DNA of 64,000 nt. Origin: an uncultured Candidatus Cenarchaeum sp. (GTDB lineage: Archaea > Thermoproteota > Nitrososphaeria > Nitrososphaerales > Nitrosopumilaceae). The position numbers and the translations under genes were made by a program. Shown one piece after another: positions 1-52,282 of the stretch (position 1 is its first letter; each line of letters opens with the position of its first letter). Where the stretch lies: positions 2,456,983 through 2,520,982 of the forward strand of contig OY282369.1 of the NCBI GenBank assembly GCA_958295735.1. Direction: 5' to 3'. The notes under the pieces are model-generated. The model was not told the DNA's origin, did not search any database, and saw only the letters and a list, made by a program, of their open reading frames with translations.

Positions 1-9
1 CCGCTGGGC

Positions 10-429
10 ATGGGCGCGGCAAAGCTGGACGAGAGCGACACCGTTCGCCTGATCTGGAAGCTCGAGGAACTCGTGGAGGAGGACGCGGCGAGGTGCGGCA
101 TGACGCATGCCGAGATGATACCGGCCGTGGAATACACCTTCGCGAAGTGGCGCGATATCCCGCGGGAGACCACGCGCGCCGTCTTGGAGGACTACCTGAA
201 GAACCCGGAAAAGTACGAGGGCGCGCTGAAAAGGCGCGAGAGCTCTAGGCCCCCCTCCTACTGGGGCGAGCCGCACGACCCGGTCACCCCGGCCGATCTC
301 GACGCCGCCGCGGATGAGCTGATAGCCGCACACAGAGCCGTGAGCGAAGCGCGCGAGGCTGAGAGGAAGCAGAGTCTCGCCGCGTCCCCCCCGCCCCCCG
401 CGGTTGCGCGCGCGGACGCTGCACGCTAG
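10..429 (+). CDS. Conserved hypothetical protein
   Basis: A 139-codon frame open from the window edge. The ATG at 10 is the first start seen, but the frame is open upstream, so the true start may lie outside. The protein is hydrophilic and mostly helical, has no signal peptide or membrane segment, and contains an acidic first half and a WGEPHDP motif near residue 85, followed by an alanine-rich helical tail. I do not recognise a family and assign no function. It is codirectional with lysK, 213 bases upstream of it, and codon use is GC-rich at third positions like its neighbours, which supports real coding. Confidence 0.6.
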   Translation: MGAAKLDESDTVRLIWKLEELVEEDAARCGMTHAEMIPAVEYTFAKWRDIPRETTRAVLEDYLKNPEKYEGALKRRESSRPPSYWGEPHDPVTPADLDAAADELIAAHRAVSEAREAERKQSLAASPPPPAVARADAAR

Positions 430-606
430 GCCGGCCGGCGCGGCGCCGGCCGGGCCGCGGGCATCCGGCCGCTGCAACCGGAGCCCGGGAGGGCGGGACG
501 CGCGCCCCGGCCGCCCCCGCCGATCCCGCCGCGGAAGCGCCGGCGCGCGCGCCGGGCCGGAGGGGAGCGGGCGGGGCCGCGCGCCCCGGCCGCCCGCGCC
601 GATCAG

Positions 607-614
607 AAAAAATA
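607..614 (+). promoter_or_regulatory. TATA-like box for lysK
   Basis: The run AAAAAATA is the only AT-rich patch in the 213-base gap before lysK. It is centred about 32 bases before the ATG at 643, slightly farther than the usual 26 in this window, so a leader of a few bases is expected. Confidence 0.4.
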
Positions 615-642
615 GCCCCGGGCGGGGGGTGCGGCTGCGGGG

Positions 643-2391
643 ATGGGAGGGACGGGCGGCGGTTCTCGGGGAGGGGCGGGAGCGGGCGGGGCCCCGCGGC
701 CGGCCGGGAAGGGGCGGGAGATCATCGGGCGCGGCACCTGGATAGACAAGCTGGCCCGCGAGATGCTGGACCGCGAGGTGTCGCTGGGCCGGAGCCTCGG
801 CATGGTGCGGGTCGAGAGCGGCCTGGGCGCCTCCGGCGTGCCGCATCTGGGCAGCCTGGGGGACGCCGCGAGGGCCTACGCGGTCTGCCTGGCCGTGAGG
901 GACGCGGGGCACGCCTCGGAGCTCCTGGCGTACTCGGACGACATGGACGGGCTGCGCAGGGTCCCCGAGGGCCTCCCGGCGTGGCTGGGGGAGCACCTGG
1001 CCAAGCCGGTCTCGGCGGTGCCCGACCCGCGCGGGTGCCACGACTCGTACGGCTCCCACATGAGCAGCCTGCTGCTGGAGGGACTGGACGCCCTCGGGAT
1101 ACGGTACGCCTTCCGCAGCGCGCGCGACGCGTACGGCCGGGGGCTGCTGGCGGGGCAGGCGAGGGCGATACTCTCCGAGGCCTCCCGTATAGGCGAGCAG
1201 ATAGAGCGGATGGTGGGGCAGGACAAGTTCAGGCGCGTCCTCCCGTACTACCCCGTCTGCGAGCGGTGCGGCCGCCTGTACACGACCGAGGCCCTCCGGT
1301 ACCACGCGGGCGAGGGCAGGGTGGAGTACAGGTGCGCGGGGGCCGGCGTGGGGGGCGGCCGCGTGCCCGGGTGCGGCCACTCCGGGGAGGCCGACGTGGC
1401 GAGGGATCCGGGCAAGCTGGCCTGGAAGGTCGAGTTCGCCGCGCGGTGGCAGGCCTTCGACGTGCGGTTCGAGGCGTACGGCAAGGACATCATGGACTCG
1501 GTGCGCGTGAACGACTGGGTCTGCAGCGAGGTGCTCGGCACCCCGCCCCCGCACCACGCCAGGTACGAGATGTTCCTGGACAAGGGCGGGAGGAAGATCT
1601 CAAAGTCGGTAGGCGGCGCCGTGACGGCGCAGCAGTGGCTGCGGTACGGCACGCCCCAGTCCCTGCTGCTGCTCATGTACAAGAGGATGCGGGGCGCGCG
1701 CGGTATAGGGCTGGAGGACGTGCCGGCCCTGATGGACGAGTGCATGGATCTCGAGGAAGCCTACCGCGCGGGAGGCGGGAGGGGCGCGGGGATGGAGGCC
1801 AAGGAGCGCGGGCTGCTAGAGTACGTGCACTTGCTGGAGCCGCCCGAGGGCCCGCCGCTCCGAGCAAGCTACAGGATCCTGCTGGGGCTCGCGCGCGCCT
1901 TCCGGGAGGACAGGGAAAGGAACGTGGTGAAGCGGCTCGCATCGTACAGCGCGATCAGCGGGGACCCTGACGAAAGGGAAAAGGCCCGCATCGCGGAGCT
2001 GGTGAGGCTGGCGGGCAACTACGCGGACGACTTTCCCGACGAGGCGCAGCGGGAGGCGCGGCACAGGATAGAAGCTCAATCGCGAACGGCGTACCGCATC
2101 GGAGGCGGCGGGGCGCGCCCGGCGGAGGGCGTGGGGACCGGGCGGGCCCTGGCAGATCTGGCCGTGGCGCTGGACGCGATGGGCGGCGACCCCGCGGGCG
2201 GGGATCCGGCGGGCGCGGTGCGGGATGCCATCCGGGAGGCGGCCGGCCGCAACGGGGTGGAGATGCGCGACCTGTGCCGCGCGGTGTACCGGGTGCTGCT
2301 GGGGGCCGACCGCGGGCCCAGGCTGGGGCAGTTCATACTGGACACGGGCCCGGGCAGGGTGGCCGAGAGGCTGAGGAAGCATACCGGCTGA
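643..2391 (+). CDS. lysK: Lysyl-tRNA synthetase, class I
   Basis: Charges tRNA-Lys with lysine in the cytoplasm (EC 6.1.1.6). This is the class I form found in most archaea and some bacteria. At 582 residues it is near the usual family length. Visible features are an N-terminal GRGTWIDKLA block at about residue 27, the HIGH-type signature PHLG at residues 67-70, a cysteine-rich zinc-binding-like insertion (CERCGRLY then a YRCAG and GCGH segment) at about 206-245, and the KMSKS-type loop KISKS at about 318. The C-terminal helical anticodon-binding part follows. The roughly 26-residue glycine-rich N-terminal extension is odd, but no other in-frame start codon lies between 643 and the conserved block. 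The stop overlaps the next gene's ATG by one base (TGATG), indicating translational coupling. Confidence 0.95.
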   Translation: MGGTGGGSRGGAGAGGAPRPAGKGREIIGRGTWIDKLAREMLDREVSLGRSLGMVRVESGLGASGVPHLGSLGDAARAYAVCLAVRDAGHASELLAYSDDMDGLRRVPEGLPAWLGEHLAKPVSAVPDPRGCHDSYGSHMSSLLLEGLDALGIRYAFRSARDAYGRGLLAGQARAILSEASRIGEQIERMVGQDKFRRVLPYYPVCERCGRLYTTEALRYHAGEGRVEYRCAGAGVGGGRVPGCGHSGEADVARDPGKLAWKVEFAARWQAFDVRFEAYGKDIMDSVRVNDWVCSEVLGTPPPHHARYEMFLDKGGRKISKSVGGAVTAQQWLRYGTPQSLLLLMYKRMRGARGIGLEDVPALMDECMDLEEAYRAGGGRGAGMEAKERGLLEYVHLLEPPEGPPLRASYRILLGLARAFREDRERNVVKRLASYSAISGDPDEREKARIAELVRLAGNYADDFPDEAQREARHRIEAQSRTAYRIGGGGARPAEGVGTGRALADLAVALDAMGGDPAGGDPAGAVRDAIREAAGRNGVEMRDLCRAVYRVLLGADRGPRLGQFILDTGPGRVAERLRKHTG

Positions 2392-2588
2392 TGGCGCACG
2401 ACGAGCACAACCGCAGGCGGAGCGGGGGGTTCTTCCTCATAATACTGGGCGCGCTGATCTTCGTGACGGCGCCCCTGTACCTGGCCGACTCGCCGGAGCT
2501 GGGCGCGGCGGCCATCGCGTTCGGGTTCCTGGTGGGCGGCCTGGGGTTCTACATGACCTTCCTGCGCCGGCGCTCCCGGAGGGCGTGA
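2391..2588 (+). CDS. Small two-helix membrane protein
   Basis: A 65-residue protein beginning MAHDEHNRRR, with two hydrophobic helices (about residues 13-30 and 37-57) joined by a short acidic loop, and an arginine-rich C terminus (RRRSRRA). The charge pattern suggests both ends face the cytoplasm. Its ATG shares one base with the lysK stop codon, so it is co-transcribed and probably translationally coupled with lysK. There is no recognisable enzymatic motif. Function unknown; it may simply be an operon passenger with a membrane role. Confidence 0.7.
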   Translation: MAHDEHNRRRSGGFFLIILGALIFVTAPLYLADSPELGAAAIAFGFLVGGLGFYMTFLRRRSRRA

Positions 2589-2624
2589 CGGCGGCCCGCG
2601 GGATCCGCGGCCCGCGATAGCACC

Positions 2625-2634
2625 TTTTTTTAAG
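2625..2634 (+). promoter_or_regulatory. TATA box for coiled-coil gene
   Basis: TTTTTTTAAG, the sole AT-rich patch in the gap, centred about 26 bases before the ATG at 2655, as expected for an archaeal leaderless transcript. Confidence 0.7.
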
Positions 2635-2654
2635 ACGGCCTGCGGACGGGCGGC

Positions 2655-4643
2655 ATGGGCTGGTTCAAGTGGTCAAAGTACGACCCGGAGGGCAGCGGCG
2701 GGCAGCCGGGCGCGGAGGCCCCTGACGCGGGCGGCGGGGGGGAGGCGCGGGACGGCACTTCCGCGGCTCCCGGGAAGGGCGCCGATGCCCCCGACGGGGA
2801 AGGTTCCGGGGCCCCCGACGGGGAAGGTTCCGGGGCCGCGGGCGCGAAGGATGCCGAGGCCCCCGGCGTGAAGGATGCCGAGGCCCCCGGCGCGAAGGAT
2901 GCCGAGGCCCCCGGCGCGAAGGATGCCGAGGCCGAGGCCGCGGGCGCGAAGGATGCCGAGGCCGCGGGCGCGAAGGATGCCGAGGCCGCGGGCGCGAAGG
3001 ATGCCGAGGCCGCGGGCGCGAAGGATGCCGAGGCCGCGGGCGCGAAGGATGCCGAGGCCGCGGGCGCGAAGGATGCCGAGGCCGCGGGCGCGAAGGATGC
3101 CGAGGCCGCGGGCGCGAAGGATGCCGAGGCCGCGGGCGCGAAGGATGCCGAGGCCGCGGGCGCGAAGGATGCCGAGGCCGCGGGCGCGAAGGATGCCGAG
3201 GCCGCGGGCGCGAAGGATGCCGAGGCCGCGGGCGCGAAGGATGCCGAGGCCGCGGGCGCGAAGGATGCCGAGGCCCCCGGCGCGAAGGATGCCGAGGCCC
3301 CCGGCGCGAAGGATGCCGAGGCCGCGGGCGCGAAGGATGCCGGGGCCGCGGGCGCGAAGGATGCCGGGGCGGAGGCTCCAGGCGCGAGCCCCGATGCCCC
3401 CGGCGCGAGCCCCGGGGCAGAGGCGCCGGGCGGGACGGGAAGCGGCGGGGAGGGCCCGCCGCCGGCCGCGCCGGATCCCGCGCGCGGGGGCCGCGATGCG
3501 GGCGGGGAGCGCCGGTGGCCCGCCGAGTCGGATCTCGCCGAGAGGAGGGCGCGCCTCGACGATCTGGAGGGGCAGGTCTCCCTCAAGGAGCGCATCCTGC
3601 AGTCCGCCTCCGGCCGGCTGGAGGCGGTGAAAAAAGAGTACGACGACGCGGTGGGCCACCTGATGTCGTCGAAGATGGAGCTGCGCTCCATGAAAAAGGA
3701 GATCGAGTCGCTCGCCGCCGAGCGCGACGGCATGCTGGAAAAGGTCGCCCCACTGCGCGAGCAGCTCTACGGCATCGAGGAAAAGCTGGCCGAGAAGCAG
3801 GGGCGGGCCGACGAGCTGGCCAAGGCCGAGGCCCTCCTGGCCGAGACGACGGACGAGATCGCGAGGAAGCAGGCCGAGGCCGAGGGCCTGGGGGCCGAAG
3901 TGGCGAGGAGGCGCGCCGCGGCCGAGGTGGCGCTGGCCGAGACGACGGACGGGATAGCGAAGAAGCGGGCCGAGGCCGAGGAGCTCGGGGCCGACGTGGC
4001 GAGGAGGCGCGCCGAGGCCGAGGTGTCGCTGGCCGACGTGGCCGACGAGATCGCGAAGAAGCGCGCCGAGGCCGCGGACCTGGAGGCCGCGATAGCGAAG
4101 AAGCGGGCCAAGGCGGAGGACCTGGGCGCCGACATCGCGAGGAGGCGGACCGGGGCCGAGGAGACCCTGGCCGGCGTGGCCGGCGAGATAGCGAAGAGGC
4201 GGGCCGCCGCCGACGACCTGGACGTCGAGATAGCGAAGAAGCGGGCCAAGGCCGAGGAGCTGGAGGCCGGGATAGCGAGGAGGCGGGCCGCCGCCGAGGA
4301 CCTGGAGAGGCGGAACTCCGAGTCCGAGTCGGCGCTGGGCCTGCTCGACGCCAAGCGCAGGAACCTCGAGGAGGCGGCCGCGGAGGCCGCCGGGCGCCTG
4401 GACGCGGCGCGGGCCGCGCCCCCCGGCGCGGCCGGGCCGGCCGGCGCCCCCGCGCCCCCCGACGGGTCCGGATCGGAGAGGCACGTCATGGAGGCGGCCA
4501 GCGCCATAGTCTCGTCGGTATCCCAAAAACTGCGGGCCGCCGAGAGCGAGCTGGCCGCGGTGAAGCTGGTGCTGCAGAAGGAGAGGGAGGGGCACGCGGC
4601 CACGCGCGAAAAGCTCGCGCTGCTGCGGGGCGGCCCCCCCTAG
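2655..4643 (+). CDS. Repeat-rich coiled-coil protein
   Basis: A 662-residue acidic protein. After MGWFKWSKYD comes a low-complexity region (about residues 20-280) built of the octapeptide DAEAAGAK and variants with P or V. The C-terminal half (about 290-660) is a long predicted coiled coil with regularly spaced EIAKKRAEAEEL-type units. There is no signal peptide or membrane helix, so it is probably cytoplasmic. The architecture resembles structural or scaffolding coiled-coil proteins, but no family is recognised. It has its own TATA box 26 bases upstream. Its stop codon overlaps that of the convergent downstream gene in a shared CTAG. Confidence 0.75.
   Translation: MGWFKWSKYDPEGSGGQPGAEAPDAGGGGEARDGTSAAPGKGADAPDGEGSGAPDGEGSGAAGAKDAEAPGVKDAEAPGAKDAEAPGAKDAEAEAAGAKDAEAAGAKDAEAAGAKDAEAAGAKDAEAAGAKDAEAAGAKDAEAAGAKDAEAAGAKDAEAAGAKDAEAAGAKDAEAAGAKDAEAAGAKDAEAAGAKDAEAAGAKDAEAPGAKDAEAPGAKDAEAAGAKDAGAAGAKDAGAEAPGASPDAPGASPGAEAPGGTGSGGEGPPPAAPDPARGGRDAGGERRWPAESDLAERRARLDDLEGQVSLKERILQSASGRLEAVKKEYDDAVGHLMSSKMELRSMKKEIESLAAERDGMLEKVAPLREQLYGIEEKLAEKQGRADELAKAEALLAETTDEIARKQAEAEGLGAEVARRRAAAEVALAETTDGIAKKRAEAEELGADVARRRAEAEVSLADVADEIAKKRAEAADLEAAIAKKRAKAEDLGADIARRRTGAEETLAGVAGEIAKRRAAADDLDVEIAKKRAKAEELEAGIARRRAAAEDLERRNSESESALGLLDAKRRNLEEAAAEAAGRLDAARAAPPGAAGPAGAPAPPDGSGSERHVMEAASAIVSSVSQKLRAAESELAAVKLVLQKEREGHAATREKLALLRGGPP
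2838..3390 (+). repeat. 24-bp tandem repeat array (DAEAAGAK)
   Basis: From 2952 to 3263 there are 13 perfectly spaced 24-bp units encoding DAEAAGAK, flanked by variant units (AEAPGVK, AEAPGAK, AGAAGAK). The near-identity of units at DNA level suggests recent expansion, so copy number probably varies between strains. Confidence 0.95.
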
Positions 4644-5086
4644 AACCCCGCGTACCTGCCCTTCCACTCGGCCTTTACCTGCTCCTCGGTCGCGCCCAAG
4701 TCGTACAGCGGGGACCGCACCTCGTGCACCGACTCCAGCCTCACCTTGGCGACCGACGATATGGGGCTCCTGACGCCTCCCGCCCTGTACCGCGCGACGA
4801 TCTCCCCGAACTCGGCCCCTCCGTCCAGCACCTCGGCGGTCCCCTCGAACCTGTACCCCCTCCTCAGCAGGGGATCCACCACGCAGGCCGCCACCGCCGG
4901 GTTGGCCCGCAGGTTCCTCGTGGTCCCCGGGGAGCGGATGTCGGCCACGACCAGGCAGCCCTCGCCCCACGGGGCGATCGTCCCCCTCGGCGACACGGCC
5001 GGCCTCCCCCCGGGAGTCACGGTGGCCACGAAGCCGAGCCTCAGCCTGCCCAGGAACTCGATCGCCTCGGGGCCCGCGGACGCCAC
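4640..5086 (-). CDS. Pyridoxamine 5'-phosphate oxidase-like FMN-binding protein
   Basis: A 148-residue protein with the split-barrel pattern of the pyridoxamine-phosphate-oxidase/flavin-reductase-like superfamily: FLGRLRLGFVATVTPGGRP near the N terminus, SPRGTIAPWG next, then TRNLRANPAVAACVVDP and a GYRFEGTAEV strand. Such proteins bind FMN, F420 or haem and are usually cytoplasmic oxidoreductases or FMN sensors; the exact substrate cannot be told. The GTG at 5086 is chosen because a TATA box (GGTTTTAAC) lies 26 bases upstream; the longer frame is GC-rich noise. It converges on the coiled-coil gene, sharing a four-base CTAG stop overlap. Confidence 0.8.
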   Translation of the reverse strand: MASAGPEAIEFLGRLRLGFVATVTPGGRPAVSPRGTIAPWGEGCLVVADIRSPGTTRNLRANPAVAACVVDPLLRRGYRFEGTAEVLDGGAEFGEIVARYRAGGVRSPISSVAKVRLESVHEVRSPLYDLGATEEQVKAEWKGRYAGF

Positions 5087-5107
5087 GGGGCGGGGGCGGC
5101 GCGGGGC

Positions 5108-5114
5108 GTTAAAA
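5108..5114 (-). promoter_or_regulatory. TATA box for PPOX-like gene
   Basis: GTTTTAA on the minus strand, centred about 25 bases before the GTG at 5086. Confidence 0.65.
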
Positions 5115-5130
5115 CCCCACCGCGGCGGCG

Positions 5131-5229
5131 CTACCTCATCAACTCTACCACTATATCGGAGAGGAAGAACAGGCCTATCCCGCCGCCTATTATCGCCACC
5201 CACGCGGCGATCTTTCGCGCCCTGTCCAC
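5131..5229 (-). CDS. Possible 32-residue single-helix membrane peptide
   Basis: From a GTG at 5229 this reads MDRARKIAAWVAIIG, then a hydrophobic segment ending in the acidic LSDIVVELMR. A basic N terminus, about 18 apolar residues and a short tail fit a small single-pass membrane protein. The frame is closed by an upstream TAG, so the start is fixed if the gene is real. No convincing TATA box is seen. It is much more AT-rich than flanking noncoding DNA, in line with coding hydrophobic residues. Function unknown. Confidence 0.4.
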   Translation of the reverse strand: MDRARKIAAWVAIIGGGIGLFFLSDIVVELMR

Positions 5230-5302
5230 GCGCGGCGCGGGGCGGCGGCGCTAATGAACGTAACCGCCGGGCCGGCGGGGGCCCCGCGGCCGGCAGCAAA
5301 GA

Positions 5303-5310
5303 CAGATAAC
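5303..5310 (+). promoter_or_regulatory. TATA-like box for cysteine-rich pair
   Basis: CAGATAAC centred 25 bases before the ATG at 5332. This spacing favours that ATG over the ATG at 5254. Confidence 0.55.
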
Positions 5311-5331
5311 GCGGGCCCGCGGGGGCGGGGC

Positions 5332-5511
5332 ATGGTGGGGCCGCGCGACGGGGGGTTCGGGTTCGACCAATCCAAAAAGTACGCCTCGGTGGACAACGTG
5401 GACGAGATCTGCGTCCAGTGCCAGGCGGGGCAGCACGCCAAGTGCCTCGCCCGGTCAGGCGGGGCCGCCGCGTGCGAGTGCGAGCACTGCATAATAAGCG
5501 GCGGCGCGTAG
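5332..5511 (+). CDS. Small cysteine-rich (zinc-binding-like) protein
   Basis: A 59-residue protein. Residues 27-53 hold six cysteines and two histidines in the order CVQC, QHAKC, CECEHC. The spacing resembles a compact zinc-binding knuckle, but no named zinc-finger family is recognised. An upstream ATG at 5254 is in frame but lies before the TATA-like box, so the shorter form is preferred. A second, similar cysteine-rich gene starts nine bases after the stop, so the two are probably one transcript. Possible roles are nucleic-acid or metal binding; this is inference from composition only. Confidence 0.65.
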   Translation: MVGPRDGGFGFDQSKKYASVDNVDEICVQCQAGQHAKCLARSGGAAACECEHCIISGGA

Positions 5512-5520
5512 GGGTCGGCG

Positions 5521-5673
5521 ATGCAGTGCAGGAACCTGGAGGCCGGCTGCTACCACGACGGCGCGGCCCACGCGGGCGGGGCCGCCGGGCGGTGCCTGGT
5601 GAGGGGGTGCGGCTGCGCCGGGTTCGCGGGGCGGGGGGGCGATGCCGCGGGGCCCGCGCCGCGGAAGGCGTGA
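5521..5673 (+). CDS. Second small cysteine-rich protein
   Basis: A 50-residue frame starting MQCRNLEAGCYHDG, with cysteines at positions 3, 10, 25, 30 and 32 and histidines at 12 and 17. The order of Cys, His and the glycine/alanine-rich spacer resembles the preceding 59-residue protein, so the two may be distant tandem duplicates. It begins nine bases after its neighbour's stop and has no promoter of its own. It is too short for standard gene callers, but third codon positions are nearly all G or C, as in real genes here. Confidence 0.55.
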   Translation: MQCRNLEAGCYHDGAAHAGGAAGRCLVRGCGCAGFAGRGGDAAGPAPRKA

Positions 5674-5789
5674 ACGCCCCCGCCGCGCGGCCGCCCCCCT
5701 TCCGCGCACGAATGCCAGCGCCGCGGCCAGGGCGCGATCGCCGCACGCCGCGTCGTGCCTGCCCGGCAGGGGGATCGGGAGCGACGCGA

Positions 5790-6220
5790 TCAGCGCCCGC
5801 AAAGCGTTGGACGTCTTCCTGCACGAGCTGACGGTTTTGAAGCGGTTTTCCCCGCATCGGCGGCCTCGGCCCCCGGAAGCGCGCTCGCCCCCCCGCGCAG
5901 GCACCCGATGCCGGACTCGAAGTCCGCCCCGCGCGCCCCGCCCGCCTCCGCGCCCGTCGGGATCGACCGGGATTCGGCGCCCTTCCGCGGGCGGCTCCCG
6001 CCGCCGATCTCCCGCGCGATCGCGCCGGGCCGCGCGGCCCGCCCCGCGGCGTTGTGGCACGGGATGCCGGCCGCCGCGAACGCGGACGGGCGGCCCCTCC
6101 CGCGGCGCGGCCTCTCGGCGAACCTCCCGCAGTCGGGCTCCGCGCACCCGCTGGAGATCAGCCGGCCCGCCCCGGCGGGGAGCCCTGGCGATGGTGGCTC
6201 CCCTGCAGCATCTCGGTCAT
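5790..6220 (-). pseudogene. Possible degenerate cysteine-containing gene
   Basis: The minus strand from about 6165 down to 5790 has a strongly coding-like third-position bias and encodes a segment with ISSGCAEPDCGRF, GIPCHN and GIGCLRGG. The only plausible start (ATG at 6220 or 6211, MTEMLQGSHHRQG) is in another frame and ends at a TGA just where the cysteine-containing frame becomes convincing, so one base appears to be gained or lost near 6165. No family is recognised. The rest of 5674-6286 shows no other credible gene. Confidence 0.25.
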
Positions 6221-6261
6221 TTCTAATTGGAATCCACAGCGCAAGCGATGGATCGGCGTCG

Positions 6262-6269
6262 TATTTTAG
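6262..6269 (+). promoter_or_regulatory. TATA-like box for Excalibur gene
   Basis: TATTTTAG lies about 21 bases before the ATG at 6287, in a distinctly AT-rich patch. Confidence 0.4.
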
Positions 6270-6286
6270 CAACCAAAAGTACGTTC

Positions 6287-6689
6287 ATGCATATCTTGGT
6301 GGGCTGCGCTGGAACTTTTAGCCGGCTCGTTTTTTCTTGTTTTTTTGCTTGCGATCCCATTGTCATACGCCGACGCCGAGTATGAAAAAATGTACAACCT
6401 CCGATTGGAGATCGTGTACGTGTTCCCGGAATCGGTTGAAGAATTGGTCGAGCGCGGGTACATCATAGAGGCAGTCGGTGAAGATCTTCAAGAAGATGCG
6501 ATCGTGACCTCAAACTGCCACCACCCCGAATCATACCCGCATGTCTGTGTTGGCGGGTTTCCAGATCTTGACTGCCTTGAGATAAAGTTTAGGGATTTTG
6601 TGGTAATCCCGCCCGATCCATACGGGTTTGATCTGGATGGAGACGGTTTGGGCTGCGAAAGCCGGCACTATCCGCACCCGGGCGGCTGA
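6287..6689 (+). CDS. Secreted Excalibur-like calcium-binding protein, frameshifted
   Basis: The C terminus ends in PYGFDLDGDGLGCES, the DxDxDGxxCE signature of the Excalibur domain, a small extracellular calcium-binding motif known from bacterial surface proteins. The reading frame is clear from 6345 but lacks a usable start. The ATG at 6287 is in another frame; removing one T from the six-T run at 6330-6335 joins the two into MHILVGC...RLVFLVFLLAIPLSYADA, a textbook signal peptide. So the gene is either inactivated, switchable at the T run, or carries a sequencing indel. Base composition (about half AT at 6230-6690) is unlike its surroundings and suggests acquisition by transfer. Cysteines in the middle may form disulfides. 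Confidence 0.6.
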
Positions 6690-7446
6690 TCGCCGGTTCA
6701 ATTGGTGCGGGTTTGCCTGTCCGGGATTAGTTTGGCCGCCCCTCCGGTCACGATCTTGCCGCGCGCCCTCCGGGTCACGGTATCGGCCGACCCGCTTTCA
6801 ACTCCCGCATCGAATCCGACCCGTTTCCGGCAAGGGCCACCGTGGGTTGCCCGCAGCGCGCGGGCGGCCCGCCCCCGCCCGCGCGGCGCTCGGCGCTCTC
6901 GTGACTGCTTCCGGGATGCTTCCGCGGCCCTGCGCGCCCTCCGGCTTTTTCCGGCCGCATCCGTCGCCGCTCTTGCGGGCGGCGGCCCTACCTCATTCCT
7001 GCGAGTTGGGCGGGGGCGGAGCGTCGGGAGCTTCGGCGTGCCGGCCTTTCTGCCTGCATGGGCCGCCCGCCTGCCGCCGTCTGCGGCGGCAGCGCCGCCG
7101 AGGACGGGAACGGGGGGGGGGGGGAGGGGCGGAGGCCTGGCGGGCGCCGCCGGCGCCTGCTCTTGGCGCGGCCCGCTCACCAAGAGGGTGCTCTCCACCG
7201 TGCTCGCGCTGGCGGGCGCCGCCGGCGCCTGCTCTTGGCGCGGCCCGTCCCGCAACCGGCATTCCGCCGCGCCGCGCTCTCTCCTTCCCGCCAGAACCGC
7301 CCCGCCGCCCGCCAGCCCGCCCCGCGCGCGCCTCGGCGCGCGACCCGCGGCGGGGCGCGGAGCCGGCTGCCCGCCTCCGCCTGGCGCGAACCAGATCGAC
7401 GAGGGCGTTCCCGCGCCGGCCGCCGCCGCGCCGCGCCGCGATCAGC
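6690..7446 (+). other. Gene-poor stretch with G tract and direct repeat
   Basis: No convincing gene is seen. It holds a 13-G tract at 7112-7124 and a perfect 39-bp direct repeat (7137-7175 and 7209-7247, 72 bases apart). In one plus-strand frame the repeats read LAGAAGACSW, the second preceded by KRVLSTVLA, which looks like a fragment of a lipobox signal peptide behind a G tract. This may be the relic of a switchable surface-protein gene, but that is speculation. Confidence 0.5.
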
Positions 7447-7450
7447 AAGG

Positions 7451-7457
7451 ATTAAAT
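7451..7457 (+). promoter_or_regulatory. TATA box for tRNA-Asn
   Basis: ATTAAAT centred 30 bases before the first base of the tRNA. Confidence 0.6.
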
Positions 7458-7483
7458 CGGCTCGGCCGGCCGCCGGCTCGGTT

Positions 7484-7557
7484 GCCGCCCTAGCTCAGCA
7501 CGGTAGAGCGTCGGACTGTTAATCCGTTGGTCGCCAGTTCAAGTCTGGTGGGCGGCG
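7484..7557 (+). tRNA. tRNA-Asn (GTT)
   Basis: Folds as a complete cloverleaf. The seven-pair acceptor stem (GCCGCCC with GGGCGGC) is perfect. The four-pair D stem is GCTC/GAGC. The anticodon loop CTGTTAA gives GTT at 7518-7520, with one U-U mismatch at the base of that stem. The five-pair T stem closes the loop TTCAAGT. The discriminator base is G, and CCA is not encoded. No intron is present. Confidence 0.96.
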
Positions 7558-7567
7558 CCCAGCACAA

Positions 7568-8050
7568 TCAAGGCGTCGGCGCCCGGCCGCGGCGCCCCCC
7601 CGCCTCCAGCTCGGAGCGCAGGGCCGCCAGGGATGCGGAGTAGAACGAGCCCAGGCGCGCCCGGAACGCGGCGAACTCGGCCCCGGTCATCCTCTCGCTC
7701 TCGAAGCGGGACCGCCACGTTATCCTGGTGCGCCCCCTCCCCGCCGGCCCCAGGGACACGGTCGCGTGGTAGGCCCGCAGCGGGAGGCCGTCGCTGGCCA
7801 CGTACGAGACGGCCCGCCCTTCCTCCCACCCCGTGATGATCTCCCTCACCACGCTGCCGTCCCCGAACTCGATCTCCCGCACGGCGCCCGGCCCGCTGCG
7901 CGGGCCCCGTAACAGCCGCGCCCCCGTGACGCCTGCGGCCCACCGCAGGTCGGCGATGCGCCTCACGCGGGCCCAAGCCGCGGCGCGCGGGGCCCCGGCC
8001 GCGACGGACCTCTTCAGGAAGCCGACGTGAAAGTCCCCACTCGCGGCCAA
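7568..8050 (-). CDS. SRPBCC (START-like) domain protein
   Basis: A 160-residue protein with the polyketide cyclase/START-like pattern: FLKRSVAAGAPRAAAWARVRRIADLRW at the N terminus, a central VVREIITGWEEGRAVSYVASDGLPLRAYHATVSL strand series, TRITWRSRFES, and a long C-terminal amphipathic helix. Such helix-grip folds bind hydrophobic ligands in a cavity; the ligand is unknown. The TTG at 8050 is chosen because a TATA box lies exactly 26 bases upstream; the frame extends farther but through GC-rich noncoding DNA. It converges on tRNA-Asn, ending 11 bases after it. Confidence 0.75.
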   Translation of the reverse strand: MAASGDFHVGFLKRSVAAGAPRAAAWARVRRIADLRWAAGVTGARLLRGPRSGPGAVREIEFGDGSVVREIITGWEEGRAVSYVASDGLPLRAYHATVSLGPAGRGRTRITWRSRFESERMTGAEFAAFRARLGSFYSASLAALRSELEAGGRRGRAPTP

Positions 8051-8072
8051 CGGCGGCGCCGCGGCCGGCGCC

Positions 8073-8080
8073 CGTTTAAG
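8073..8080 (-). promoter_or_regulatory. TATA box for START-like gene
   Basis: Minus-strand CTTAAAC, centred 26 bases before the TTG at 8050; it decides that start. Confidence 0.6.
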
Positions 8081-8104
8081 TCTTGCAGGTGTAGACTTGT
8101 ACGA

Positions 8105-8167
8105 GGTCAGCAACCCCCGCTCCGCAGGCGTGAATCTAGATCAGCAGAAGCGTTTTCGCGCCCGCGG
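8105..8167 (+). repeat. Interspersed repeat, family B, copy 1
   Basis: About 63 bp running from GGTCAGCAACCCCCGC to TTTTCGCGCCCGCGG. Copies in the opposite orientation lie at 49077-49137 and, more diverged, at 17831-17889. It contains an imperfect inverted repeat. The bases just before it share TGTAGACTTG with the end of family A. Confidence 0.7.
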
Positions 8168-8209
8168 CCAGCGGGCAGCCGACCTCGTACTCACCGCCCG
8201 GTCAAATCG

Positions 8210-8216
8210 TTATATG
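8210..8216 (+). promoter_or_regulatory. TATA box upstream of restriction-modification locus
   Basis: TTATATG, the best TATA box in this gap, centred 27 bases before the ATG at 8240. It probably drives the small frame 8240-8434 and the restriction-modification gene behind it. Confidence 0.55.
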
Positions 8217-8239
8217 CCGGCGGCCGTCCTGGCACGGGC

Positions 8240-8434
8240 ATGGGGGTTGCCGGCATCGGGAGGAAGGCCGGGACGGTTCATCCCCGCCGCCGGCGCCCCG
8301 GGAGCGCGGAGGCGGGATGCCGCGTCCCCGCGCCCGATCTCGAATCCGAGAAGGCGCTAGGGCCGCGAGAACCGGCGATGCGCGGGCGGGGCGCGGGCCC
8401 GGGGGGCGCCGGGATCCGCGGAACGGCGGGGTAG
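8240..8434 (+). CDS. Small basic hypothetical protein before R-M gene
   Basis: A 64-residue frame (MGVAGIGRKAGTVHPRRR...) whose ATG sits where a leaderless transcript from the TATA box at 8210 should begin, and which stops seven bases before the GTG of the restriction-modification gene. It is arginine- and glycine-rich and has no recognisable domain; it does not look like a C-protein helix-turn-helix controller. Codon bias is only moderate, so it may instead be a transcribed leader. Confidence 0.3.
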   Translation: MGVAGIGRKAGTVHPRRRRPGSAEAGCRVPAPDLESEKALGPREPAMRGRGAGPGGAGIRGTAG

Positions 8435-8441
8435 TTGTGCC

Positions 8442-11400
8442 GTGGAAAAAAGGCCCAAAAAACGGCCCGGGGTTCACGGGGAAGGCGAGCTGTCGATCAG
8501 GATAAGGACCAGCGAGGTCTCGATCAGCCTTAAGTCGCTAAACGCGATGAACGAGGCCGAGATCAGCGACAAGATAACGACGCTCCTCCTGAAGCACGGG
8601 ATAACGCCGTACCAGCAGCATCCCATACCGTCCGCGCGCAACGCCAGGAAGATCGGGAACTGCGATCTGTACATATACGACAAGCGGACAATAATCGAGG
8701 TAAAGAAGGTCAAGCGCCTGGAAATGGGGCCGCACGACGAGGAAAGCGGCGACGGCACCCGTTCCGCGTTCCAGCAGCTCGCGAAATACGTCACGGCCGA
8801 AAGGGCCCACGCGAACTCGCGCATCGCGGACTATGCGGGGGATCGGGACGTCTCCGGGCGGCCCTACCTCTGGGTCGGAATAGTCACGAACTACAAGAAG
8901 TGGTGGGCGTGGACGTGGCCGCAGTACGAATCCGCGGACGACGGGAAGCTGCAGGACAGCTTCAACGGCGTGGAACTGACCGTTCCCAAGGAAAAGCAAC
9001 TCGTGGCACTCCTCCTGAGGAAGGAAGCCAAGCCTGTCCCGGAGGATCTGGGGCCCATGTTCGAGCCTCACCTGGAGCGCTTCACGGCGCTACACGGGAG
9101 GCTGAAGGACTACAGGGACACGCAGACGCAGAAGGGATTGTGGCTCAGGCAGCTGGAGGCGAGCGGGAACGCCCCCGATGCGGACGTCGACGAGATATTC
9201 GTCAGGCACACGCTCCTCATACTGGTCACCCGCCTGATTTCCAAGGCCGTGGGCGGCCACGAGGCGGATGTGCTCACGCAGGGCTTCGTGTCGTGGGTCG
9301 GCGACGGCCGCGAGGAGGTAAAGTCGCTGGCCGCCGACATCAATGCCTACGACTGGAACCACGAAACGCGAGACATAATGCGCTCGCTGTACATGGGATT
9401 CATCCCGAAAAAGCACCGCAAGAGCTACGGGGAATACTACACACCCGACTGGCTCGCCGAAAAGATCGCGATGACCGCCATAGACGAAAAATACGTCCGG
9501 AAGCAGCTCGAGTCGTTCCAGTCCAGCGGGACCGTCAAGCCCGTGCTCGATCCGGCATGCGGGTCGGGATCGCTGCTGTACCACGCGGGCCGGTTCATCC
9601 TTAACTCAAAGGCCGTATCGGAGGCGCGGCTGTACGCGAGTCCGGCAAAGATAAACGAGTTCCTGTGCGCGATGCTGTGCGGCATAGACATACACCCTGT
9701 CGCTGTCGAGATGGCGAGGACAAACATACACCGCCTGATACGCTACGCGACCGACCAGCGCATAAATGTGTACCAGGGCGATTCGCTCCTGCTGGACAGG
9801 CCGACCGACAACGTCCACAGCGCGGCGATAGCCGATCCGGACGACCTGGTCCTCTACTCGCCAAGGGGCGCAGCGCTCGTGCTTCCGAGGTCGCTCCTGA
9901 AGTCGCCCGAAGGCGTAGAAGTGCTGGCAAGGACGGCCAAGGAGGGCATCGCCCCGCCAAAGTCGCTGACGGAGCGGCTAAACGCGAAGGATGCCAAAAA
10001 GGCCGTGGACGCCCACGGGGCCCTGGTCCGCATAATGGACAGGGAGGGCGACGGCGTGTGGGAGTGGTACATAAAGAACCAGGCGGCCCCACTGCTCCTG
10101 CGGGAACGGAAGGCCGGGAGGATCATATCTAACCCGCCGTGGGTCAGGACGAGCCTGATAAACTCGAGGAACCGGAAAGCGCTGATCGAGAGCGAGGCCA
10201 GGAGGCTCGGCCTGTGGGTGGGCGGCAACACCGCCACCAGCTTCGACGTCGCGGCGCTGTTCGTGGACAGGTGCTCTTCGCTGTACCTCGAAAGGCCGAG
10301 GAAGAGCGCGTGGATACTGATCGGCGGCGCGCTGGAGGCGAAGGCGTGGCAGGGCCTCCGCGACGGCGGCGCCTGGGGGGACTACAAAGCATCGTGGGAT
10401 CTCGGAAGCGCCGCGTTCGACATGGGGTTTTCGACGTGCGTCGCATTCCTCGGGATAAGCACGCCGAGCAGGAAGCTCGTGAAAAAGCCGGGCACGTCGC
10501 TGAGGCCCAACGAGTTCCTGTCGGACATACGGGACAAGGCGAGCTGGGAAAAGCCCGACGGCGCCTACCCGAAGCATCAGTCGGGGTACGTCGCGAACAG
10601 GAGGGCCGCCCCCAGGAACGGCGCCACGCTGTTCCCCTACAACCTGGTGCGGATCAAGGAGATCGTCTCGGAAAAGACGGGGGGGGGGGGGAAGATGAGG
10701 TTGAGTTCACCACGCTGGTCAAGACGGGCAAGTGGGACAAGTTCGGCAGCCTGCGTGGGACCGTCCCGAAGGGATGGGTGAAGGACTGCATCTATTCCCA
10801 GGACATGTACCCGTACGCGGTCCAGACGTCTACCAATTGCATAATACCGATGAAGGGGGGCAGGTGGGATCCCGGGCGCGACTCGCACGAATACTGGAAG
10901 AAGGCCTCCGACATATACGCGGGAAACAGGGGCGCGGGAAAGAATACCCCGGAGACGCTGCAGAAGAACCTGGACCACAACTGCAAGCTGTCGAAGCAGC
11001 TCGGGATCGGGAAATGGCTGGCGGTCTACAACGCGGGCGGGGAGAACCTGTGCGCCATGAAGGTAGCGCCAGGTCGGTACATAATAGAGCACGGATGCTT
11101 CTACGTCCCGTGCGAGTCCGAGGGAGAGGCCGACTACCTGACCGCCATGCTCAACGCGCGGATCATGTCGTCCCCGATCGGCGGGGCGAAGACGAGCGAC
11201 TTGTACTTCGGCCAAGGCATATGGAAGGCCGTGCCGATACCGAGGTTCGATCCGGGCAACCGGCTCCACGCGGGGCTGGCGCGGGCAGCGCGGAGGGCGG
11301 GGCGGGTCTCCGAAAGGGCGTACCGATCCGAGCGAGGGCGGGGGAACAGGTCGGGCAACTGGACGATATCGAGAATAATACGCGAGGCGCTCGCGCGGGA

Positions 11401-11503
11401 CGGCGTTTCGGGCGTGATCGACGGCCTGTGCAGGGACGCAATTGACGAGCACTACCGGCGCGTGGCGGGAACCGAAAAGTCGTACTGGGACCAAGGCGCG
11501 TGA
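8442..11503 (+). CDS. Fused restriction-modification enzyme, broken at a G tract
   Basis: A type IIG-like enzyme that would both methylate and cut DNA. The N terminus holds a PD-(D/E)xK-type nuclease signature (D75...E86-V-K88 in CDLYIYDKRTIIEVKK). The central methyltransferase has motif I DPACGSG at about residue 370 and the catalytic NPPW at about 564, as in N6-adenine methylases. As sequenced, translation from GTG 8442 ends at 10781 after 779 residues, because the 13-G tract at 10679-10691 shifts the frame. The C-terminal part (EDEVEFTTLVKTGKW...), probably the target-recognition region, continues in another frame to 11503. With 14 (or 11) G the protein would be about 1020 residues. An ATG at 8547 is an alternative start. 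See the small frame and promoter just upstream. Confidence 0.85.
10679..10691 (+). repeat. 13-G tract inside R-M gene
   Basis: A homopolymer in the coding strand between the methyltransferase core and the C-terminal region. The current length puts the downstream frame out of register; one added or two lost G would restore it. Confidence 0.95.
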
Positions 11504-12064: not shown

Positions 12065-15320
<3,256 letters not shown>

Positions 15321-23365: not shown

Positions 23366-23430
23366 CGCCGGCCGGGGGGGGCGGCCCCGGGCGGCGCGGA
23401 TCCGCCGGCCGGGGGGGGGGGGCGGCCCCG
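23366..23430 (+). repeat. GC-rich duplication with 8-G and 12-G tracts
   Basis: CGCCGGCC-G8-CGGCCCC and CGCCGGCC-G12-CGGCCCC occur in tandem (tracts at 23374-23381 and 23411-23422) upstream of the giant gene's TATA box. Slippage here would change distance to upstream promoter elements. Confidence 0.7.
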
Positions 23431-23478: not shown

Positions 23479-26400
23479 GTGAAATGCGGCGGGCGCGGCG
23501 CGCGCGATCCCCGGCCGGAAGAGGTTTCGGGCCGGGCCGGGGCGGTGAGGGGGGGGGGGGGGGCGCGGGAGGTGACGGCATCCCCGCCCCCGGCGCGAGC
23601 CCCGCGGCCTTTTCGGCGCCGGCTGCTGCCTGCCGCGATCCTGATCGCGTCCGCGGCCGTTCTCGCGGGCTGCGCCGCCCTGCCGGGCGCGCACGCGGAC
23701 GGCGGCCAGCTGACCGTCAAGATCTCGTCCGACGCGGCCCCTTCCACCGGCCTGACGACCGTGCCGTTCACCATGAAATTCAACAAGACCGTGGACGCCG
23801 CGACCCTCGACGCATCGGACATCGTAGCTACCACGGGCACCGTGCAGAACCTGCGCGCGGTGTGGCCGCACAACGCGACCTTCGGCAGCACGGGCAATGG
23901 GAACGGCCAATTCAGCCAGCCGGCCGGCGTGGCGGTAGACGCCTCCGGCAGGATATACGTGGCCGACCAGCAGAACCACCGCATCCAGATATTCGACCCC
24001 GCCGGGAGCCATGTCGCCACTATGGGCGGCCCGAACCAGGGCGCTGGGAACGGCCAATTCAACCAGCCGACCGGCGTGGCGGTAGACGGCTCGGGCACCA
24101 TATACGTGGCCGACACGAGCAACAACCGCATCCAGATCTTCAACTCCTCCAGGAATCACGTGGCCAACATCATGGGCGGATTCTTCCTTCCGAACGGCGT
24201 GGCGGTCGACGCCTCCGGCAACATCTACGTGGCCGACACGGGCAATGGCGACATAAAGATCTACGGCCCCAACATGGTTCTATCATCCACAATCGACGTC
24301 TCCCCAGAGAACCCGTACGCCGTGGCGGTCGACGGCACGGGAAAAATTTACGCGGTCTATAGGAACACCGACAAAGTCGAGGTATTCGGATCCGACAGGA
24401 ACCACATAGCCAACATCACCGGGTTCGACGTCCCGAACGGCGTGGCCGTCGACGGCTCGGGCACCATATACGTGGCCGACGGGGCCGCTGCCAACAGCGT
24501 AAAGATCTTCGACTCCGGCAGGACGCCCACCGGCACCATTCCCCCAGACACCATCCCCCGCGTGGTCCTGTTCAACAACCCGAACGGCGTCGCAGTCGAC
24601 GGCTCGGGCAAGATATACGTGGCCGACACGGGCAACAACCGCATCCGGATATTCGACACCGCGTACGAGTTCGACGTGGAGAATCCGGCCAACGGGCGCA
24701 CGCTCGAGGTGAGCGTGCCGGCCGGCCGCGTGGAGGACGCGGCCAGGAACGGGAACGAGGCATCCAACACGGCAAGCATCGTCATAGACAGGACCCCCCC
24801 GGCCACGACCGTCACCGCCACGCAGTCAAGCCCGACCAACGCCACCACTATAAACTTCCGGGTGGAGTTCGGCGAGAACGTCACCGGGTTCGAGCGGGAC
24901 GACATCGCGCTCTCGGGCACCGCCGCCACGGGCGGCGTGGCCGGCTTTGCGGGCAGCGGCGCCTCGTACGCGTTCGACGTCTCGCCCACGGCCGACGGGA
25001 CCATACGGGTGAACATACCCGCGGGCGCGGCGCGGGACGGCACGGACAGCGACAGCAAGGCGGCCGAGTTCTCTATAAGGTACGACAGCGCGGGGCCGAC
25101 CCCGGCGATCGCCTCGACGGAGACGGGCTACACCCGCCTGCTGACCGTCCCGTTCACCGCGAGGTTCGGCGAGACCGTGAACGGCTCCACCCTCGCCGCA
25201 TCGGACGTCGACGCTTCCTCGGGTGAGGTGCGGGACATGCGCATGGCGCTGCAGCACGTCGCAAACTTCGGCAGAATTGGCCAGGGAAACGGCCAGTTCA
25301 ACTGGCCGCACGCCGTGGCGGTAGACGGCTTCACGGGCTACCTCTACGTGGCCGACTATCACAACCACCGCGTCCAGGTCTTCGACTCCGGCAGGAACCA
25401 CTTGGCCACATTCGGCGGCCACGGCACGGGCGCCGGCCAATTCAAACTACCAGCCGGCATAGCGGTCGACGGCTCCTCGGGAACCATATACGTGGCCGAC
25501 AAGGACAACCACCGCGTCCAGGTCTTCGACTCGAACAGGGCCTACGTCGCCGACCTGCCGGGCTCGTTCCTCAACCCGCGCGGCATAGCAGTCGACGCCT
25601 CCGGCAGCGTGTACGTGGCCGACTCGAACAACCACCGCATCCGGGTATTCGATTCCGACAGGAACCCCGTGGCGAACTTCGGCGGCCGCGGCTCGAGCGA
25701 CGGCCAGCTTAAATTTCCGTACGACGTGGCGGCCGACGCCTCCGGCAACTTGTACGTTGCCGACTATGGCAACAGCCGCATCCAGGTCTTTGACTCCGCC
25801 ACCAAGGCCCACTCCGCCTACCTCTCCGGCCAGTTCGGATTCCCGGCCGGCGTGGCGGCCGACGCCTCGGGCAACGTGTTCGTGGCCGACGCAAACAACC
25901 ACCGCATCAGGGTGTTCGACTCCGGGATGAATTCTGTCGCCAACATCACCAGCTCGTTTAGATTCCCGTACGGCGTGGCAGTCGACGACTCTTCGGGCAG
26001 GGTATACGTGGCAGACAGGGACCGCAGCCGCATCCAGGTCTTCGATGCCGTGCACGCGTTCAACGTGGGAAACCTGGCAGACGGAGATGTGCTCGAAGTG
26101 AGCGTGCCGGCCGGCCGCGTGCTGGATCTGGTGGGAAACGAGAACGAGGCATCCAACGCGGCAAGCATCGTCATAGACAGAAAGGCCCCGGTTCCGGTAG
26201 TCACTGCCGCGCAGTCCAGCCCGACCAACGCCGCGGCGATCGGATTCACGGTGAACTTTACCAAGCCCGTCGACGGGTTCGCGCTAGGGGACGTCGCGCT
26301 CTCGGGCGACGCCGCCCGCGGCGGCGCGTCCAACTTCGCGACCGTCAACGACACGACGTACACCTTCGTCGTCACGCCGGCGTCCGACGGGACGATAACG

Positions 26401-52268: not shown

Positions 52269-52282
52269 GGGGGGGGGGGGGG
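52269..52282 (+). repeat. 14-G tract near start of giant gene 2
   Basis: Sits between promoter-proximal start and signal peptide, the same place as the 15-G tract of giant gene 1. Confidence 0.95.

Follow-up and report, generated by a model that had tools for sequence, protein, structure and literature searches.

Switches that turn genes ON and OFF through simple repeats are well known in bacteria, and restriction-modification (R-M) genes are the classic phase-variable kind. For all such systems, the survival of unmethylated sites on return to the ON state is a recognised issue. To our knowledge, phase variation by simple repeats has been charted almost only in bacteria.

The closest described counterpart of the locus reported here is Cj0031 of Campylobacter jejuni NCTC11168, a Type IIG enzyme with a G9/G10 poly-G switch for which both switching and CCYGA methylation have been shown experimentally (PMC4889913). 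As described, it resembles the present enzyme in being a one-chain Type IIG protein with a poly-G tract in its reading frame, the length of which toggles the protein; in addition, most of its homologues do not carry the tract (PMC4889913), as is also the case here. Cj0031, however, is bacterial and belongs to a genome rich in phase-variable genes, whereas the present gene is archaeal, has a G13 tract that is the single mid-gene one, and is predicted to switch. Poly-G tracts of Campylobacter are found within ORFs in 82% of cases (PMC6321876), the reverse of the mostly intergenic tracts of the archaeal host genome. According to a 2025 review, how widely phase variation occurs among archaea and phages has yet to be charted (PMC11868660). 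The consulted passages of a 2026 review of methyltransferases describe no archaeal phase-variable case (PMC13076061), and we found no example of archaeal phase variation in the open-access literature.

The window, i.e. the whole stretch of 64,000 nucleotides that was analysed, belongs to a Nitrosopumilaceae-type archaeon whose genome is assembled as a single contig of 3.17 Mb, and whose kinship points to association with sponges. Among its other features are a giant gene, which occupies a single coding frame some 21.6 kb long (23681-45331), and a tandem PPEFPEP-type repeat (13780-14300) in the ORF of a CAP-domain (PF00188) protein.

The R-M gene, which is Type IIG-like, spans positions 8442..11503 of the + strand, with a GTG start assumed at 8442, and is colinear with single-ORF homologues across its two frames. 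These are separated by a frame-breaking G13 tract (10679..10691, +), which falls in a variable-length loop of the homologue alignment. Upon translation, the GTG frame passes through the tract into an out-of-frame tail of 29 codons plus stop (10692..10781, +) and ends at 10781, giving 779 aa. The other frame, which ends at 11503, is already open before the tract and continues beyond it for 270 codons (10691..11503, +), and the two halves add up to 1020 aa. In the first-pass annotation, the nuclease and methyltransferase core was described as running to the tract and the C part as 270 codons with coding character in another frame. Both statements hold: the frame from 8442 reaches the tract with the catalytic motifs in the N part, and a seven-state coding model, trained on the same genome with no homology input, places the frame change at the G tract (+2 to 10702, then +1 to 11491). 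The coding log-odds per codon are 0.50 for the N part and 0.43 for the C part, compared to 0.39-0.80 for the other genes of the window. By frame arithmetic, G counts with n mod 3 = 2 (11, 14, 17) fuse the two parts, which bears out the claim that one extra G, making 14, reunites the halves. The tail after the tract is 29 codons with G13 and 2 codons where n mod 3 = 0, such that the product is 779, about 1020 or about 752 aa depending on tract length. A long simple repeat thus lies inside the R-M reading frame and makes its product frame-dependent, as is characteristic of phase-variable genes.

Judged by its sequence, the gene product is a single-polypeptide Type IIG-like enzyme, for which both cutting and adenine methylation are predicted. 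Motif searches and alignment with the RIDIxxGATVIEVK stretch of the homologues reveal a putative PD-(D/E)XK nuclease core, DLYIYDKRTIIEVK, at residues 75-88 (8664..8705, +), followed beyond the core by a QxxxY-like motif, QLAKY, at residues 112-116 (8775..8789, +). Upstream of the methylase core lies GEYYTPDWLA (9429..9458, +), which is invariant or nearly so among homologues. Methylase motif I, DPACGSG, for AdoMet binding (9549..9569, +) is supported by the Pfam domain N6_Mtase (PF02384, E 1.4e-9), and motif IV, the amino-methyltransferase catalytic motif NPPW (10131..10142, +), by motif search and alignment. The PD-(D/E)XK-like motif and N6_Mtase share one frame, i.e. nuclease and methylase are encoded in one polypeptide, as in Type IIG enzymes. 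Furthermore, the PADLOC profile REase_MTase_IIG (PDLC03630) matches the N part with E 9.9e-32 (profile positions 347-691) and, colinear with this, the C part with E 1.5e-8 (positions 977-1060 of 1100). A PDB sequence search with the whole protein gave no match.

The C part carries a VPIP motif (11231..11242, +), which aligns with LPIP in the recognition domain of the homologues. AlphaFold modelled this part with a pLDDT of 91.9 and a pTM of 0.89 when 43 homologous sequences were supplied, and with a pLDDT of 42 from the single sequence alone. In Foldseek searches, the model matched M.BseCI (best E 2e-5) and CamA (best E 3e-5), with E values for the two reaching from about 2e-5 to 4e-4, and, more weakly, BrxX, BpuSI and M.TaqI; the TaqI_C Pfam domain is detected in 7 of 43 homologues. 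M.BseCI, CamA and BrxX (PglX) have recognition domains that share the predicted fold of the C part, and a related methylase profile; they differ in being methylases without an N-terminal nuclease, and the domain identity to the C part is 10-11%. Based on homologue colinearity, the predicted fold and the Foldseek matches, the segment lost in the G13 state is, by this modelling, the target-recognition domain, which agrees with the earlier proposal that the OFF state loses the target-recognition part.

Comparison with homologues, a check that had been suggested in the first-pass annotation, was carried out across the tract. In 76 of the 78 homologues comparable at the junction, the N and C parts are in one frame, such that the target-recognition domain that is out of frame in our assembly is fused in nearly all of its relatives. 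Similarity to each homologue is the same for the C part as for the N part, and none of the 78 scored homologues has a G/C run of at least 9 inside the gene. Four single-ORF homologues of 999-1030 aa align from end to end, and further ones partially. Given the end-to-end alignment and the single frame of 76 homologues, the two halves derive, as far as their sequences tell, from one ancestral protein. Plasmids of Corynebacterium, Rhodococcus and Rhizobium carry single-ORF homologues, one of which is annotated as BseRI. The BseRI-annotated group of Type IIG relatives, namely: CAD6438280 (Rhizobium), WP_176451516 (C. glutamicum pCGR2), WP_290221392 (C. atrinae) and WP_037149805 (R. fascians), has the domain order and length of the archaeal enzyme and is colinear with it at about 25-28% identity; unlike the archaeal G13 gene, these are single intact ORFs without a long homopolymer. 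A first search of the genome contigs with a single protein gave no match, and a phylum-wide search with the C part found, outside the family, only distant matches (23-36% over about 75-135 residues, best E 3e-9).

The same comparison bears on two readings in which the split gene is functional as it stands. The C part could be an internally started, detachable specificity subunit, since its frame is open upstream and offers a GTG at 10139; with the upstream stretch overlapping the methylase and being non-coding in the model, and with the homologues fused, we regard this as exceedingly improbable. Alternatively, slippage of RNA polymerase, or frameshifting by ribosomes, at the G run might supply some full-length enzyme in every cell and so tune its dose. 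A homopolymer of 13 bases could serve as such a slippage site, and the out-of-frame C part is preserved. However, no homologue uses recoding, 76 of the 78 being plain single ORFs, and evidence for slippage at the DNA level is present in the host genome (see below), which makes recoding a very unlikely explanation.

In order to place the tract in its genomic setting, G runs were analyzed across the host genome. There are 129 runs of at least 12 and about 178 of at least 11, nearly all of them intergenic, compared to 0-15 runs of at least 11 in the genomes of relatives. In the window, 5 runs of at least 12 are observed where about 0.1 is expected. One of them, an intergenic G13 of the same polarity upstream of and outside the R-M gene (7112..7124, +), provides context for the tract class; further window runs lie at 23411-23422, 23549-23563 and 52269-52282. 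For about 477 kb of coding sequence, extrapolating from the run lengths found in genes gives an expectation of 0.02-0.16 runs of at least 12, and 2 are observed; a chance origin of a long G run in coding sequence is unlikely. Among the 153 runs of at least 11 that were sampled (730 kb), 2 have coding sequence on both sides. The first is the R-M G13, the only mid-gene tract in the 730 kb examined, and the second lies where a substrate-binding-protein gene meets the gene of its ABC ATPase. A phasome-type genome can thus be ruled out, as can a special status for the R-M tract, which is one of about 178. Long G runs are evidently kept out of genes by selection, the R-M gene being the exception. 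The setting assumed in the first-pass annotation is therefore altered, in that the host is archaeal and the R-M tract belongs to a large and nearly all intergenic class. Being one of so many, it was made by a general mutational process.

A transposase-like ORF (L027:2973-4163) furnished a third candidate for an intragenic tract, which was dismissed because its G14 lies at the 3′ end. This ORF, the tract of which has a near-copy at L094:4427, is possibly a tract-bearing mobile element. In addition, a dispersed repeat was seen in eight of the loci (L021, L025, L028, L042, L046, L047, L060 and L083), with G tracts in many copies and in both orientations; the consensus in most copies is GGGA[Gn]AGGTAAGTGTGTAC.

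The tracts are also polarised. In 143 of the 153 sampled runs of at least 11 (730 kb), the strand of the G follows one rule: + between about 1.33 and 2.89 Mb, - in the rest of the contig. One of the two polarity switch points coincides with the single Cdc6/Orc1 gene detected, at 1.328 Mb, and its counterpart lies nearly halfway round the contig. These positions suggest that G-run polarity follows the direction of replication, with the switch points as the probable origin and terminus. Genome-wide polarised G runs are possibly the more surprising finding of this study.

Tract length likewise depends on orientation. In the favoured orientation, lengths peak at 12-14 and 8-10 are scarce, whereas runs in the other orientation mostly end at 8-10; since the sampled loci were picked for runs of at least 12, the counts of 8-11 in the favoured orientation are a lower bound. 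In a repeat element found in both orientations, the 14 favoured copies carry 10-13 Gs and the 13 others 9-10 Gs (p = 6.8e-5), which argues that the lengths are set by replication and not by base-calling alone. Between the closest paralogous tracts of this one assembly, a length difference was seen in 13 of the 19 families, with 14 substitutions in 1256 bp of flanking sequence. Because lengths vary among copies with near-identical flanks, the long G runs of the host look like a hypermutable class, in line with the phase-variable design proposed in the first-pass annotation. The classes of tract length modulo 3 are close to even, with 35% of the sampled tracts having a length that would be in frame. 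No match to NucS/EndoMS (PF01939) was found in the host genome, an absence that might bear on homopolymer instability.

The same data weigh against a miscalled homopolymer, the reading in which the true length is in frame, the gene is intact and the split is an error of assembly, with the long slippery tract nonetheless real; the first-pass annotation had itself named this alternative. A 13-G run is the hardest thing to count, the core gene purL is broken in this assembly by one extra A (GGGAAACCCG), and about 477 kb of coding sequence yielded 14 frame-break-like boundaries. Base-calling error, however, would not yield an orientation-dependent tract length within one repeat element, and the 14 boundaries stand against some 1750 G/C runs of 5-9 bases counted in coding sequence. 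We therefore consider such an error unlikely as the explanation of the split. In view of the one-base break in purL, the exact count of 13, i.e. the OFF state, is nevertheless not secure; that the R-M gene contains a long G run is more certain than how many bases this run has. The purL break itself (locus L119, G000:C1:3000000-3010000, about position 4073, minus strand) may be an assembly error or a real lesion.

Since the tracts are mostly intergenic, unlike those of Campylobacter, the R-M gene could also be a chance victim: the growth of a G run would have struck a dispensable gene and left a young pseudogene without selected switching. The generality of the process that produced about 178 runs of at least 11 fits this, as do the frequent loss of R-M genes and the patchy distribution of the present one in Nitrosopumilaceae. 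The gene is absent from the one other genome of the host genus, and its nearest archaeal relative, in Cenarchaeum sp. SB0662_bin_33 (L002/L123), is decayed, with an internal TAG, 585 query residues spanned and a break beside a transposase. That copy is truncated and adjoins the transposase. On the other hand, the ~1020 codons of the present gene contain no stop or frame break besides G13, every catalytic motif is present, and the C part is conserved as well as the N part. Together with the separate repeat-borne break described next, this makes decay an improbable account of the locus.

That second break occurs in the homologue of Acidimicrobiia bacterium SB0665_bin_24 (L124, VXSV01000014.1), which ranks second among the homologues and is the best near-full-length one, at 32%. 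Its frame is broken exactly at an (AG)12 repeat (7671-7694) in the recognition domain, beyond which another frame leads to the natural end, and the gene is otherwise intact. In the 821 kb that the homologous loci comprise, no dinucleotide repeat other than the (AG)12 reaches 7 units; with R-M genes filling an estimated quarter or so of this DNA, the location of the (AG)12 alone is modest evidence, and its exact coincidence with the frame break is stronger. Both genes are thus broken by a simple repeat in or at the recognition domain, whereas L124 is bacterial and has a dinucleotide repeat at another point of the domain in place of G13. At the sequence level, this independent break suggests that the enzyme family tolerates or favours switching. 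The source genome of L124 belongs to the same MAG series as the Cenarchaeum relative; judging from the series and its companions, the SB06xx MAGs probably come from sponge samples.

Taken together, the data are best read, with moderate confidence, as ON/OFF switching of a Type IIG enzyme by slipped-strand mispairing in the G run. Slippage during replication would alter the G count, most often by one. Where n mod 3 = 2, a short poly-glycine loop would link the recognition part to the nuclease and adenine methylase, making an enzyme of about 1020 residues, which should both cut and methylate. At other counts, the chain would stop 2 or 29 codons past the tract without its recognition domain and, judging from the family, would very likely lose both activities. 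Because cutting and methylation share the recognition domain in Type IIG enzymes, the OFF state would be safe for the cell. The tract belongs to a replication-polarised class that settles at 12-14, and the switch is thus probably frequent and reversible, giving mixtures of ON and OFF cells; should tract lengths among cells mirror those across the genome, roughly one cell in three would be ON. Judging from the family, the likely benefit would be varied virus resistance among cells. The phasevarion named in the first-pass annotation, where switched methylation alters the expression of many genes, would be a hypothetical further step.

More tentatively, as something possible rather than probable, we propose that this archaeon switches an R-M gene, and hence its viral defence and genome methylation, using a genome-wide set of G runs that take their length from the direction of replication and are excluded from the other genes examined, and that switching of the homologue arose independently, by means of another repeat, in a second probable sponge symbiont. 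If so, such a gene in an archaeal lineage associated with sponges would carry phase variation into the Archaea, and virus pressure within sponges may be its driver. The replication-polarised tracts would in turn offer a natural system in which the direction of the fork sets homopolymer length.
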